DNA of 64,000 nucleotides. Origin: Poseidonibacter parvus (GTDB taxonomy: Bacteria > Campylobacterota > Campylobacteria > Campylobacterales > Arcobacteraceae). Numbering within the stretch: position 1 is the stretch's first letter; each line of letters begins with the position of its first letter. The translations under genes were made by a program, and so were the position numbers. The stretch covers positions 2,232,001-2,296,000 of the forward strand of contig NZ_CP019070.1 of assembly GCF_001956695.1 (NCBI RefSeq). The letters run 5' to 3'. The notes below the pieces were generated by a model, which did no database searches, had not been told where the DNA came from, and saw only the letters and a list, made by a program, of their open reading frames with translations. Positions 12,737 to 19,142 of this stretch are shown here, in pieces.

Positions 12737-13069
12737 ATGAAACTTTTAAAAAAGGATACAATATTGGAACCACAATATGAAAAAATCATAGTATTAGTTA
12801 TAGTACTTTTAGCAGGTTTTGTAACTTGGAAAATGGTAAAAGATTTTTATATTACAAAAATGCATAAAGTAATTGCACACTTAATAGCAGTTGCAACTTC
12901 ATCGTTTATGTTATTATCAACGATGTTTTTATTTATGCCAAAGAACTATCAAAGAGGAACAGGTCCAGAAGTAGAACTAAGCTTCATGTCTGTTATTACT
13001 GTATTCGTGATGGTTGCAGTACTTTATGTATTTTTCAAATACGCACCTCAAAGCACAAAAAAGAAATAG
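12737..13069 (+). CDS. small membrane protein of unknown function
   Basis: This 110-residue protein has three hydrophobic segments (about 17-34, 46-67 and 82-100) and a lysine-rich cytosolic tail. It starts at ATG 12737, 28 bases after the NUDIX stop, with a small GTGCTT/AAGCAC hairpin between. It may be co-transcribed with the NUDIX gene. No family is recognised. Confidence 0.6.
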   Translation: MKLLKKDTILEPQYEKIIVLVIVLLAGFVTWKMVKDFYITKMHKVIAHLIAVATSSFMLLSTMFLFMPKNYQRGTGPEVELSFMSVITVFVMVAVLYVFFKYAPQSTKKK

Positions 13070-14354: not shown

Positions 14355-14389
14355 AAAAGGGAAAAGGCTTTTGTCTTTTCCCTTTTTTT
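14355..14389 (+). terminator. rho-independent terminator of the porin
   Basis: AAAAGGGAAAAG (14355-14366) pairs perfectly with CTTTTCCCTTTT (14375-14386) across an 8-base loop, followed by a T-run. Confidence 0.9.
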
Positions 14390-14406: not shown

Positions 14407-14473
14407 TGATAATTACTATCAGTATTAATAAAAGATTAAGCTTTATTATATATAATACTAATAACAATTATCA
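14407..14473 (+). promoter_or_regulatory. promoter with two Fur-box-like palindromes
   Basis: TGATAATTACTATCA (14407-14421) is a 7-1-7 palindrome with one mismatched pair. TAATAACAATTATCA (14459-14473) is a second, slightly weaker match. A TATAAT box lies at 14451-14456 between them. Position and quality suggest iron-dependent repression of the downstream peptide/DUF2325/flavodoxin operon by the Fur encoded nearby. Confidence 0.65.
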
Positions 14474-14489
14474 ATATAAGGATTGAATT

Positions 14490-14564
14490 ATGAATGAATT
14501 AGTAATCAAAAATAAAAAAGACCTAGTGAAACCTACAGGTTGTACTTGTATGTGGGGAAAATAA
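14490..14564 (+). CDS. 24-residue Cys-containing peptide, iron-regulated leader gene
   Basis: ATG at 14490 follows a good Shine-Dalgarno (AAGG) and opens 24 codons ending in TAA at 14562-14564. The N-terminal half is lysine-rich and the C-terminus is TGCTCMWGK, with a CxC pair and a Trp. It is first in the putative Fur-controlled operon, and the DUF2325 start follows after one base, so coupling is likely. The GGGGA of its Trp-Gly codons also serves as the ribosome site of the next gene. The length is below what gene finders report. It could be a metal-binding peptide, a modified-peptide precursor or a translational leader; none can be shown. Confidence 0.6.
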   Translation: MNELVIKNKKDLVKPTGCTCMWGK

Positions 14565-14565
14565 A

Positions 14566-14895
14566 ATGAGTGTATTAATTATAGGAGGAGATCAAATCTC
14601 TTCAATTTCAACAATGCTTAAAGGTCTTGGTGCCCAAACAATCAATCATTGGGATGCAAGAAAAAAGTCTTCAGCTCCAAAAAAGAAAGTACCACAAGAT
14701 ACTGACTGTATTTTAATGCTTACATCATTTTTAAATCATAATACAATGCTTAAATATAAAAATGAAGCTAAAAAGAAAAATATTCCTTTTATCTGTGCAA
14801 AAAGATCAGTTTCATGTGTATATGAAGAGTATGTAAAAATCATGGGAATTGAAAATTGTGATCAATGTTATGCCAATTGTAAAGGAAAAAAATAA
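14566..14895 (+). CDS. DUF2325 protein
   Basis: This 109-residue protein starts with the Rossmann-like MSVLIIGGDQISSI strand-loop-helix typical of DUF2325. It has a conserved TSFLNHNTMLKYKNEAKK middle and a cysteine-bearing C-terminus (CDQCYANC) that could bind metal. Family function is not established. It shares its stop with the next start (last base 14895), within the putative Fur-regulated operon. This suggests a role in the response to low iron or in redox metal handling, by context only. Confidence 0.8.
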   Translation: MSVLIIGGDQISSISTMLKGLGAQTINHWDARKKSSAPKKKVPQDTDCILMLTSFLNHNTMLKYKNEAKKKNIPFICAKRSVSCVYEEYVKIMGIENCDQCYANCKGKK

Positions 14896-15665
14896 TGGAC
14901 TTTACTAATTTCGTAGGATTTGATGGGAAAAAAGAGCTATTACCATGTGGCTTTGATACTTTTGATTCTGAAGTAAAATTAAGACAACTATTTTTACACC
15001 TTAGTAATTTTGTTTTAAATTCAATATGTCATTTTAATAAATATGAACAAAAAAACTTTGCAAAAATTCCTTTAAAGAATGCATTTGAATCAAAAATTAA
15101 AAGCTTATTGCCTTTACACAAATTAAATAGATTAAATAACTTTGATAAAAATAGAAAATTCAATCTTTGTTCAAGTTCAACAAGAATCATAAATAACTAT
15201 TACAATCCAAAAACAAGTCAAAGATTAATAGTAAATAGTAAAAAACTAATACCAGCAGCAAAGTTAATATCACACTGTTTTATAAACAATAAGATGCAGT
15301 TATTAATGGATAAAAATCTTTTATTTCATGAATTTGTTCTTGAAAAACTAAGAAAACTACATAAAGACAAAGAAGTTTTAGACTTAGGTGATTCAATTTC
15401 AATAAAACAAAAAGATGTTTGTGCACTTAAAATATATACATCATGGAAAAATATTCAAAGAAAAGATCCAAATATTGAAAAAGAAGTTAATCATGCAATA
15501 AACGTTATAAAAGAAGGAGATTACAATCAAGTATATTTAATTTATCCAAAAGATAATGATTTTACTAGACATATACCAGTTTATGTAGAAGAATTAAAAT
15601 ATAAAACATATCAAATAAAAGCAATACCTTATTCTTTAAGGTCAATTATAAGAAAAAATATATAG
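14895..15665 (+). CDS. unrecognised protein in the iron operon
   Basis: This 256-residue protein has no family I recognise. It is soluble, basic and mixed alpha/beta. It has scattered cysteines (CGFDTF near 19, ICHF near 45, LCSSSTR near 91) and a C-terminal segment resembling a phosphate- or nucleotide-binding fold (EGDYNQVYLIYPKDND). It overlaps the DUF2325 gene by one base and is followed after 9 bases by flavodoxin. Operon position ties it to iron limitation. No signal peptide or membrane segment is seen. Confidence 0.7.
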   Translation: MDFTNFVGFDGKKELLPCGFDTFDSEVKLRQLFLHLSNFVLNSICHFNKYEQKNFAKIPLKNAFESKIKSLLPLHKLNRLNNFDKNRKFNLCSSSTRIINNYYNPKTSQRLIVNSKKLIPAAKLISHCFINNKMQLLMDKNLLFHEFVLEKLRKLHKDKEVLDLGDSISIKQKDVCALKIYTSWKNIQRKDPNIEKEVNHAINVIKEGDYNQVYLIYPKDNDFTRHIPVYVEELKYKTYQIKAIPYSLRSIIRKNI

Positions 15666-15674
15666 GAGTTAAAA

Positions 15675-16172
15675 ATGTCAACAGCCTTATTTTATGCAAG
15701 TAGTACAGGAAATTCAGAAGAGATTGCAGATAAAATTGCAAGTGAACTTGGAGGGATTGAAATTTTTGATCTAAGTTCTTCTAGTGTTGAAAAAATCAAT
15801 GAATATGATAAAGTGATTTTAGGTGGTTCAACATGGGGTGATGGTGAATTAAATGATGATTGGGATGAAGCTTGGGATTCATTTAAAACGCTTGATTTAA
15901 CAGATAAAACAATAGCATTATTTGGTTTAGGTGATCAAGATGGTTATCCTGATGAATTTTGTAGTGCTTTAGGAATTATTTATGAACAAGTAAGTACTAG
16001 TGGTGCTAAAATTGTAGGTTTTACATCGACTGATGGTTATGATTTTGATGATTCAAAAGCTGTAATAGATGGAAAATTTGTAGGTTTAGTTATTGATGAA
16101 GATAATCAAGATGATTTGACTGATGAAAGAATTTCATCATGGGCTGAAAATATCAAAGCTGATATTCTATAA
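15675..16172 (+). CDS. fldA: flavodoxin
   Basis: This 165-residue long-chain flavodoxin carries FMN and replaces ferredoxin as low-potential electron carrier, for example when iron is scarce. The phosphate loop ASSTGNSEEIADKIA (8-22), the Trp-containing loop GGSTWGDGELND (50-61) and the GLGDQDGYPDEF loop (91-102) are all present. RBS AGGAG precedes the ATG. It is the last gene of the operon that begins with Fur-box-like sites, which fits iron-starvation induction. A hairpin follows between it and fur. Confidence 0.95.
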   Translation: MSTALFYASSTGNSEEIADKIASELGGIEIFDLSSSSVEKINEYDKVILGGSTWGDGELNDDWDEAWDSFKTLDLTDKTIALFGLGDQDGYPDEFCSALGIIYEQVSTSGAKIVGFTSTDGYDFDDSKAVIDGKFVGLVIDEDNQDDLTDERISSWAENIKADIL

Positions 16173-16173
16173 A

Positions 16174-16205
16174 AATATATTAAGAGGTCAAACTCTTAAT
16201 ATATT
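16174..16205. terminator. bidirectional terminator between fldA and fur
   Basis: AATATATTAAGAG (16174-16186) pairs perfectly with CTCTTAATATATT (16193-16205) across a 6-base loop, located between two convergent genes and overlapping the fur stop. Confidence 0.75.
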
Positions 16206-16641
16206 ATTGACAATCTGAACATACACCATATAGTTGCATTGAGTGACTTGTAATTTTAAACTTATTCTTCTTAGCAATTCTTTCTTGTCTTTTTTCTATT
16301 TCATCATCTAAAAATTCAATAATTTTACCACACTCTGTACAAATTAAGTGATCATGATGAGATTTTGCATTACTTTCATATTTTTTACCATCTGTTCCAA
16401 AGTTAATAGATGTGATTAAATCAACTTCTTCAAGAAAACTAAGTGCTCTATATACTGTAGCAATACCAATATTTGAGTTGTTATCTTGTGATTTTATTTC
16501 GTTATAAACTTCTTCAGCTGTTAAATGGTCTTCTGCGTGAATTAATATATTTAATACGATTTCTCTTTGTTCTGTATATTTAAGACCTTTTTGCTTAACA
16601 ATCTTTTTTAGTTCTTCAATTGCCTCTTCTGTGCTAATCAT
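16204..16641 (-). CDS. fur: ferric uptake regulator Fur
   Basis: This 145-residue Fur-family repressor has an N-terminal winged helix (TEQREIVLNIL, then IGIATVYRALSFLEE as recognition helix, 58-72). The metal-binding dimer domain carries HHDH (95-98) and two cysteine pairs, C101/C104 and C141/C144, for structural zinc. Iron-loaded Fur would bind the palindromes upstream of feoA and of the flavodoxin operon. The gene lies between those two targets, divergent from feoA. Zur or PerR are alternatives within the superfamily, but the context favours Fur. Confidence 0.9.
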   Translation of the reverse strand: MISTEEAIEELKKIVKQKGLKYTEQREIVLNILIHAEDHLTAEEVYNEIKSQDNNSNIGIATVYRALSFLEEVDLITSINFGTDGKKYESNAKSHHDHLICTECGKIIEFLDDEIEKRQERIAKKNKFKITSHSMQLYGVCSDCQ

Positions 16642-16786: not shown

Positions 16787-16801
16787 TAATAATCATTATT
16801 A
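16787..16801 (+). promoter_or_regulatory. Fur box before feoA
   Basis: TAATAATCATTATTA is a perfect 7-1-7 palindrome close to the Fur consensus, 18 bases before the feoA start. Further partial matches (GTTGATATCAATCAAG at about 16748-16763) lie in the shared fur/feoA control region. Confidence 0.7.
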
Positions 16802-16819: not shown

Positions 16820-17047
16820 ATGACTCTAGATAAACTAAATATCGGAGAAAGTGCAATAATAAAAGCAGTAAACTGCGAAAATGCACTTAAGAATAGATTC
16901 TATTCTTTTGGAATGGTAAAAGGTTCAAAAGTATATATAGAAGAAGTGACTTTAACAAAAAGTACAATGGAGATAAGAATCAATACAACTAAAGTTGCAA
17001 TTAGATTATCAGAAGCTAAAAAAATCGAGATAGAAAATGAACAATAA
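16820..17047 (+). CDS. feoA: ferrous iron transport accessory protein FeoA
   Basis: This 75-residue SH3-like protein has the FeoA pattern: an N-terminal TLDKLNIGESAIIKAV strand pair, the NRFYSFGMVKGSKVYI turn (26-41) and a terminal strand with TKVAIRLSEAKKI. FeoA assists FeoB at the inner membrane. Its frame overlaps feoB by 11 bases, so the two are coupled. A Fur box directly upstream indicates induction under low iron. Confidence 0.93.
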   Translation: MTLDKLNIGESAIIKAVNCENALKNRFYSFGMVKGSKVYIEEVTLTKSTMEIRINTTKVAIRLSEAKKIEIENEQ

Positions 17048-19142
17048 AGTAATAAAAGTTGCATTAGTTGGACAGCCTAATGTTGGTAAATCAATGCTTA
17101 TTAACTCTATATCAAATGCGAGATTAAGAGTTGGAAACTTTTCAGGTGTAACAGTTACAAAAGAAGAAGTATTTTTAGATTACAAAGGTTATAAAATCGA
17201 AATTACTGATTTACCGGGTGCTTATTCTTTAAATGACTATACACTAGAAGAAAAAGTTACAAAAGAGTTTTTGGATAATTCTCCTTATGACATAATATTA
17301 AATGTATTAGACTCAACAAATCTAGAAAGAAATCTTTACTTAACATCAGAATTATTAGCATTAGATAAAAAAATGATTATTGCATTAAATATGATTGATG
17401 AAGCACAAAAAGAATCAATACAAATTGATGAGAAGCAATTAGGTAAAATTCTTGGAAAACCTTGTTTTAAAACTAGTGCTGCAAAGAATATTGGTATTAA
17501 TGAACTAGTTGAAGCAATTGTAAAAAAGTTTGAAGATCAAAAACTTCCAACAAAATTAATATTTTCAGATGTAATTGAAGAAGAAATTGAAAATATTTCA
17601 AATTTATTTAAAGATACTGGATTTAAAACACATTGTACTTTTAGAGAACTAGCACTCAAACTTTTAAAAGAAGATAAGCAAACCTATAAAATGTTCCATG
17701 ATGAACCAATATGGGTTAAGTTACAACCTATTTTAAATCATGCTTTTGAACATATGTATATTCACTATAATACTAAAAATATAGAAGATATATTTAATGA
17801 TGAAAAATTTGCTTTTGCAAAAGGTGCAGTTACAGAAACAACTAAGCAAAAAATTTCAACTGCAAAAACACTAACTGAAAAAATTGATTCAATTTTAATT
17901 CATAAAATATTTGGTATTCCAATTTTTCTTTTCCTAATGTGGGGAATATTTCAATTAACTTTTGTACTTGGAAATATTCCTATGGATATGATTGACTCAT
18001 TTTTTGCAAGTTTAATTGATGCAACAAAACAAGTCCTAGGAGATAATCAAATTTCATCCATGATTGCAGATGGTGCAATAGCAGGTGTAGGTGCAGTTAT
18101 TTTATTTGTGCCAAATATTGTGATTTTATTCTTTGGTATTACCTTGCTTGAAACAACTGGATATATGAGTAGAGTAGCCTTTTTATTAGATGGATTTTTC
18201 CATAAATTTGGACTTCATGGAAAGTCATTTATTCCTTTAGTTACAGGTTTTGGATGTTCAGTTCCAGCTTACATGGCAGCACGTACTTTAAAAAATGAAA
18301 AAGATAGATTACTTACATTATTTATTATTGGATTTATGTCTTGTGGTGCAAGATTACCTATTTATGTACTTTTTACTGGTGCTTTTTTCTCACCTGAAAA
18401 TGCTGGAAATATAATATTTCTAATATATATTTCTGGTGCAATTTTAGGATTAATTGCAGCTAAGGTATTAAAAATTGTAGTATTTAAAAGTGAAGATGAA
18501 CCTTTTGTAATGGAAATGCCAAAATATAGAATGCCTTCAACAAAACTAATATGGCATACCGTTTCAAACCAAGCTTATATGTATTTAAAGAAAGCTGGAA
18601 CATATATTTTAGCAGCTTCAATATTAATCTGGTTTGCTTCAAACTATCCTAAATATCCATTAATTGAAGATGAATATTCAGTAAAAATCGAGCAAGCTGT
18701 AAGTGAAGAAGAACAGCAATATTTATCAGATAAACTTGCTTTATATAATTTAGAGAATTCATATTTAGGTATTATTGGTAAATTTTCAGAGCCACTTTTT
18801 GCACCTTTAGGATATGATTGGAAAATGACGATAGCCTTAGAAACTGGTCTTGCTGCAAAAGAAATCGTTGTTTCTACGCTAGGTATCTTATATGGTTTAG
18901 GGGAAGAAAATGATGAAAATTCAAAAGGACTTATTGAGAAGATAAGAAATAATATACCTTTTGCATCAGCAGTATCATTTATAGTATTTGTAATGATTTA
19001 CTTACCTTGTTTAGCTGCATCAATGGTATTTGCGAAAGAAGCTGGAGGATGGAAATATTTAGTTTATTTATTCGTATTTACAACTATAACAGCTTGGGTA
19101 TTAGCATTTGTAGCATATAATATTACGAAGTTAATTGTATAA
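17037..19142 (+). CDS. feoB: ferrous iron transporter FeoB
   Basis: This 701-residue inner-membrane Fe(II) transporter has an N-terminal G domain with G1 GQPNVGKS (12-19), G3 DLPGAYSL (about 58-65) and G4 NMID, then a helical spacer (GDI domain). The membrane part has two Gate motifs with key Cys residues (GFGCSVPAYMAAR near 405 and FMSCGARLPIY near 440) and a conserved ETGLAAKEIVVSTLG near 605. It is slightly shorter than E. coli FeoB. It works with FeoA just upstream, under the Fur box. Confidence 0.97.
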   Translation: MNNKVIKVALVGQPNVGKSMLINSISNARLRVGNFSGVTVTKEEVFLDYKGYKIEITDLPGAYSLNDYTLEEKVTKEFLDNSPYDIILNVLDSTNLERNLYLTSELLALDKKMIIALNMIDEAQKESIQIDEKQLGKILGKPCFKTSAAKNIGINELVEAIVKKFEDQKLPTKLIFSDVIEEEIENISNLFKDTGFKTHCTFRELALKLLKEDKQTYKMFHDEPIWVKLQPILNHAFEHMYIHYNTKNIEDIFNDEKFAFAKGAVTETTKQKISTAKTLTEKIDSILIHKIFGIPIFLFLMWGIFQLTFVLGNIPMDMIDSFFASLIDATKQVLGDNQISSMIADGAIAGVGAVILFVPNIVILFFGITLLETTGYMSRVAFLLDGFFHKFGLHGKSFIPLVTGFGCSVPAYMAARTLKNEKDRLLTLFIIGFMSCGARLPIYVLFTGAFFSPENAGNIIFLIYISGAILGLIAAKVLKIVVFKSEDEPFVMEMPKYRMPSTKLIWHTVSNQAYMYLKKAGTYILAASILIWFASNYPKYPLIEDEYSVKIEQAVSEEEQQYLSDKLALYNLENSYLGIIGKFSEPLFAPLGYDWKMTIALETGLAAKEIVVSTLGILYGLGEENDENSKGLIEKIRNNIPFASAVSFIVFVMIYLPCLAASMVFAKEAGGWKYLVYLFVFTTITAWVLAFVAYNITKLIV

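Follow-up and report, generated by a model that had tools for sequence, protein, structure and literature searches.

A short stretch of the genome of the marine bacterium Poseidonibacter parvus raises the question of whether 24 codons lying between a promoter and a gene for a DUF2325 protein form a gene in their own right and, if so, what so small a product could do when iron is scarce. The window, by which we mean the whole stretch of 64,000 nt that was analysed, lies within a 2.87-Mb single-contig genome, and all positions are window coordinates (Table 1). An earlier note had proposed a Fur-controlled operon consisting of the tiny gene, DUF2325, an unrecognised 256-residue protein and flavodoxin. 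A terminator-like hairpin after the upstream porin gene sets this operon apart from that gene, and on its other side lie a convergent Fur-family gene and the iron-uptake genes feoA and feoB. The DUF2325 assignment (PF10087; E = 4.2e-16; 59.3 bits with a cut-off of 33.6) and the flavodoxin assignment (TIGR01752) were both borne out. The translational overlap claimed for the small ORF and DUF2325 was not found; the two are closely spaced, with one base between the stop codon and the next start.

Table 1 Features of the micropeptide operon and its surroundings
Feature	Position	Strand	Remarks
Intrinsic-terminator-like hairpin	14355..14386	+	14-pair stem with T tail; 3' of upstream porin gene
Fur-box-like palindrome 1, TGATAATTACTATCA	14407..14421	.	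13/14 to 7-1-7 consensus
Fur-box-like palindrome 2, TAATAACAATTATCA	14459..14473	.	12/14 to 7-1-7 consensus
Shine-Dalgarno AAGGA of small ORF	14478-14482		
Micropeptide gene, 24 codons, MNELVIKNKKDLVKPTGCTCMWGK	14490..14564	+	MNELVIKNKKDLVKPTGCTC plus lineage-specific tail MWGK
DUF2325 protein, 109 aa	14566..14895	+	PF10087; cysteine-rich end; Rossmann-like model
256-aa protein, McrC-like fold without nuclease D-x-K motif	14895..15665	+	
Long-chain flavodoxin FldA	15675..16172	+	TIGR01752, E = 4.3e-64
Fur-family regulator gene, convergent	16204..16641	-	PF01475, E = 3.4e-43; NF051891, 152.9 bits, cut-off of 200 not reached
Fur-box-like site before feoA	16787..16801	.	12/14 to consensus
feoA	16820..17047	+	PF04023
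feoB	17037..19142	+	PF02421

We scored Fur-like sites against a 7-1-7 consensus (maximum, 14), by which the two palindromes that had been seen at the promoter, before the tiny gene, hold up well. Four sites in the entire 64-kb window score at least 12, the third of them just before feoA, and shuffling the dinucleotides of the 100-base promoter stretch yielded a best site of 13 in 3 of 2,000 cases and none higher. By the same consensus, the top-scoring site 5' of DUF2325 reaches at least 12 at 78 of 83 loci of the family (shuffle mean, 9.6), and a site of at least 12 lies 5' of DUF2325 at 31 of 39 loci from other families. From these sequences we infer that the micropeptide operon of P. parvus would be induced at low iron.

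The claim of a conserved small gene was upheld within the family (f1), and the lack of conservation that the earlier note had named as a refutation is thereby contradicted. Of 104 genomes in f1, 84 have DUF2325, and 85 loci were examined, one partial place being left out. At 42 of the 85 there is a small ORF that ends in GCTC or four codons beyond it. GCTC is invariant in all 42 peptides while its codons vary synonymously, and among 37 distinct sequences (from 41 loci without N) pN/pS was 0.50 over the first six compared codons and 0.10 over the last eight, with pN of 0 and pS of 0.45 over the last four, GCTC itself; selection is thus on the amino acids. A [DN]-[LI]-x-K stretch preceding the Cys end is also conserved. 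A TAA stop directly follows the last Cys (...KPTGCTC) in 40 of the 42 peptides, and the four-codon read-on occurs only in the window genome (MWGK) and one other (G091; LWER), where the tails are encoded by the Shine-Dalgarno of the downstream DUF2325 gene. Being present in only 2 of 42, the Trp tail is a lineage quirk, and the CxC-Trp motif highlighted in the earlier note gives way to GCTC, or more widely GxxC, as the conserved end.

Searching 124 DUF2325 loci with a pattern tuned after the peptides were known, we matched 48 small ORFs on the operon strand and none on the opposite strand, whereas 20 shuffles gave a mean of 0.35 matches and never more than 2. When GTDB contigs were scanned for DNA of K-P-T-G-C-T-C plus T-R-R, 39 stretches were found, of which 19 adjoin DUF2325 and all end in TAA; the other 20, with no DUF2325 nearby, end in TGA or TGG and look like chance, and a spread beyond Campylobacterota was rejected. 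We also rejected an RNA element, with no Rfam family near the small ORF and no conserved fold at it (2 pairs, zero covariation). No Pfam or NCBIfam model matches the peptide. Overall, the small ORF is almost certainly a real peptide gene and, judging by its codons, the micropeptide is presumably translated.

Order-wide searches extended the family to five others of the same order (f5, f7, f14, f16 and f20), revealing peptides of 13-25 residues that nearly all end in Gly-x-x-Cys, with likely Fur-like sites 5'. Convincing short-frame matches were obtained in 23 genomes (19 in f1 plus G107, G247, G336 and G393), and 21 of these have DUF2325, versus 164 of 398 genomes overall. The position of the gene varies considerably: it stands before DUF2325-feoA-feoB in G107 (MLKIKARDDLIKGNGCTC), after DUF2325 in G188 (MKNELRIYKKDNLIQQDGCTC), between DUF2325 and apbE in G203 (MKHDECFGMDDLIDPNGCTC), at the end of the operon, ahead of what by eye is a terminator-like hairpin, in G247 (MKKNLIKPTGCTC), and directly 5' of the McrC-like and flavodoxin genes in G315 (VKSDLLKQDGCTC), where DUF2325 is on another contig. 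Accepted short-frame peptide matches in f16 came from 10 of 180 genomes. Six of these peptides lie directly 3' of DUF2325 (G428, G388, G358, G548, G569 and G537, the last position being read from the printed sequence; for example, MFELNNKANIKKFTGKPC), the gene in G358 closing the operon ahead of a terminator-like hairpin that was also identified by eye, and four are encoded by solo genes that follow Fur-like sites and have no neighbour close by on the same strand (G336, G393, G527 and G463).

These positions bear directly on the idea, raised in the earlier note, that the small ORF regulates translation. As a leader peptide, its translation would sense iron or cysteine by stalling near the Cys codons or the stop, thereby setting downstream translation or termination. 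The f1 loci fit such a scheme, since the gene comes first with a regulated gene downstream in cis, the spacing to DUF2325 is 1-20 bases and, as in arrest peptides, a variable N-terminus is combined with ten C-terminal residues conserved up to the stop. However, no such downstream gene is found in G247 and G358, where the gene is last before a hairpin (by eye), or in G336, G393, G463 and G527, where it is alone; in several genomes it lies behind DUF2325, conserved RNA structure is absent, and in the window lineage the stop lies four codons further on. CruR, a Cys-containing upstream ORF (DUF2946) before a copper-related operon of Bordetella, provides a precedent for metal sensing, but the available text describes an exported protein with CXXC and a RAPP arrest motif that works in cis (PMC9426467), whereas the micropeptide has CTC, no RAPP and no Pfam match, and its gene is found last or alone. 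Because the gene can be first, second, last or solitary, a leader peptide is disfavoured, and we consider it improbable; a product acting in trans is favoured, and we hold this with good confidence.

The reading that we find most likely, although with somewhat less than even confidence, is that Fur represses a micropeptide which acts in trans at low iron and whose C-terminal thiol is functional, DUF2325 being its likeliest partner. Fur with iron would repress the operon promoter, and falling iron would allow transcription of the peptide-DUF2325-McrC-like-flavodoxin operon. The finished peptide would then act in trans through roughly its ten C-terminal residues, up to the Gly-x-x-Cys end, and the thiol of the terminal Cys would probably bind a metal or a cluster, or else a second thiol belonging to the partner, most likely the cysteine-rich DUF2325 protein. 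A small peptide whose C-terminus is conserved and whose N-terminus is free would be well suited to docking, with an important terminal thiol, and we infer both the thiol function and the binding to DUF2325. In the window peptide, which runs four residues past the last Cys, either an exactly C-terminal thiol is not essential or the copy is decaying.

DUF2325 is the most regular companion of the peptide, and that it is the target seems to us plausible but short of probable. G336 and G393 carry the peptide and have no DUF2325 at E = 1e-15, so DUF2325 is not the sole target or those copies are remnants. Conversely, 43 of the 85 family loci have DUF2325 without the peptide, which is therefore dispensable; no convincing copy was found elsewhere in the fetched stretches of these loci, nor was a peptide found at 31 of 39 DUF2325 loci from other families. 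The DUF2325 protein has invariant H28, W29, D30, R32, N57, H58, N59 and C98 across 26 aligned sequences. Its structure model (pLDDT 83) is Rossmann-like, gave nothing in Foldseek that reached E = 0.001, and aligned best by VIA (Z = 9.0) to unrelated Rossmann-like folds; as these matches are uninformative, no function was read from the fold. A more specific and rather doubtful version of the trans-acting reading is that of a detachable encoded ligand, a free peptide of at least 13 residues that would insert its Gly-x-x-Cys into a partner, most often DUF2325, with the thiol serving metal, cluster or persulfide chemistry in iron starvation, and whose gene would change place inside the low-iron operon, or leave it, with the Gly-x-x-Cys end preserved.

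A free peptide might also work without any protein partner, its thiols chelating or chaperoning ferrous iron, or else zinc or copper, in the cytosol, as the CxC end, the Fur-like sites and the solo copies would permit. This is unlikely: relatives ending in GKPC, GRAC and GRPC have one Cys in that end, which weakens a chelator role, and the conserved [DN]-[LI]-x-K stretch fits docking better than simple chelation. Very unlikely is the precursor of a modified peptide (RiPP), whose end would be processed into a thiol-containing product. Its conserved, core-like C-terminus with Cys and Thr would suit, but lengths go down to 13 residues with no conserved leader region, and no shared modifying enzyme was seen, the McrC-like protein being absent nearby in G085, G086, G107 and G203.

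The profile searches in f16 suggested a further resemblance. Of 107 genomes counted as matching, most gave an 11-residue match within a frame of about 430 residues, which in those read was HemL (glutamate-1-semialdehyde aminotransferase), and this was the commonest non-peptide match. Its segment is NRDDIVKFTGC or near it (for example, L310), with E down to 0.001 per genome, as if the peptide mimicked HemL and so tuned haem synthesis at low iron. However, the f16 matches are orthologues and count once, and in 26 genomes peptide and segment do not co-vary, HemL always having K-F-E/T/D-G-C and the f1 peptides K/R/E-P-T/S-G-C; we rejected this mimicry, which is barely credible. The C-terminal arm of DsrC/TusE ends in ...KPTGC-x and carries sulfur, and the peptide end resembles it, but the peptide is free-standing and there is no DsrC in the P. 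parvus genome, so mimicry of the arm was rejected.

A second group of small ORFs, ending in ...HRL(I/L)RxGxxC, occurs within DUF2325 operons of one f16 genus, and two of ten further loci carry this HRLIRxGxxC form. Its profile link to the main peptide family is weak (Prob 26), and kinship is possible. In G229 (L289, near 1760-2000), an HRLIRSGRPC ORF runs directly into hemP (PF10636, E = 2.6e-16), with DUF2325 next. HemP, like the peptide, is a small protein, tied to haem and iron uptake, and is here preceded by a possible distant relative of the peptide; unlike HemP, the peptide is not covered by Pfam or NCBIfam.

Other features recur around the relatives. In G336, G393, G463 and G203 (L164, L165, L308 and L275), the peptide gene has a di-heme peroxidase-like gene (CATCHD..HGF.DAR, by eye) a few kb away at most. 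In several genomes, the GKPC peptide is followed 3' by a strong Shine-Dalgarno, an ATG and a stop within 1-2 codons (L246, L247, L304 and L305; for example, ATGAGATAA and ATGAAATAA). In f16 and f20, a 64-residue protein (MAQQIINEINKF...) without a Pfam match follows DUF2325 or the peptide (L243-L245 and L268).

The idea that the module was undescribed could be kept only in part. According to the available text of two studies, the DUF2325 gene of Campylobacter jejuni, cj1384c, is preceded by a Fur motif, and it and the adjoining cj1383c are highly iron-responsive and Fur-responsive (PMC4491227, PMC3815106); with these orthologues published, the operon is not entirely new. In f10 genomes the genes run DUF2325 - McrC-like - flavodoxin, and unlike in P. 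parvus, no peptide ORF was present at the seven f10 loci examined. Violet-blue light raised cj1384c 352-fold, more than any other C. jejuni gene in that study, the available text of which gives its function as unknown (PMC9426514). What stands is the peptide, of which no description was found in the accessible literature on DUF2325, Cj1383c, Arcobacter iron, Fur or flavodoxin, and small proteins, or in the available text of a C. jejuni small-protein census (PMC11955535). The micropeptide gene would be one of the shortest conserved protein-coding genes linked to iron control; it occurs in six families within a single bacterial order, and routine annotation has probably overlooked so small a gene. 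It opens a way to study DUF2325, for which the literature gives no function, and the peptide can be synthesised and directly assayed.

Finally, we examined the 256-residue protein, which had been called unrecognised. This holds for sequence, where Pfam, NCBIfam, PHROG and PADLOC gave nothing convincing and where neither this protein nor DUF2325 has a convincing PDB relative, but not for the fold. Its predicted model (pLDDT 88) matched archaeal McrC (6ut7_G) with a Foldseek E of 3.3e-5 and a Z score of 14.2 (rmsd 3.8, 235 residues aligned), the next rows reaching 9.4 and lower. The sole PF10117 match in the genome is at another locus, a genuine McrC (contig positions 2695643-2696515), with which profile comparison of the 256-residue family is weak (Prob 1.7, E = 0.03), pairing FLFDMNILFEKFI with LLMDKNLLFHEFV. 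Where that McrC has LIIDTKYK, the McrC-like proteins have KIYTSWK or KIFTFWE (matched by eye), so the nuclease D-x-K is apparently replaced and the nuclease is probably dead. Upstream of the porin gene, 12737-13069 encodes a protein that is small and membrane-like and that matches FeoB_associated weakly (E = 0.009, short of the cut-off). At loci of genus g10 (for example, L122-L136), the McrC-like gene begins 515-720 bases past the DUF2325 start, where about 330 is usual, which leaves room for an extra small gene between the two.
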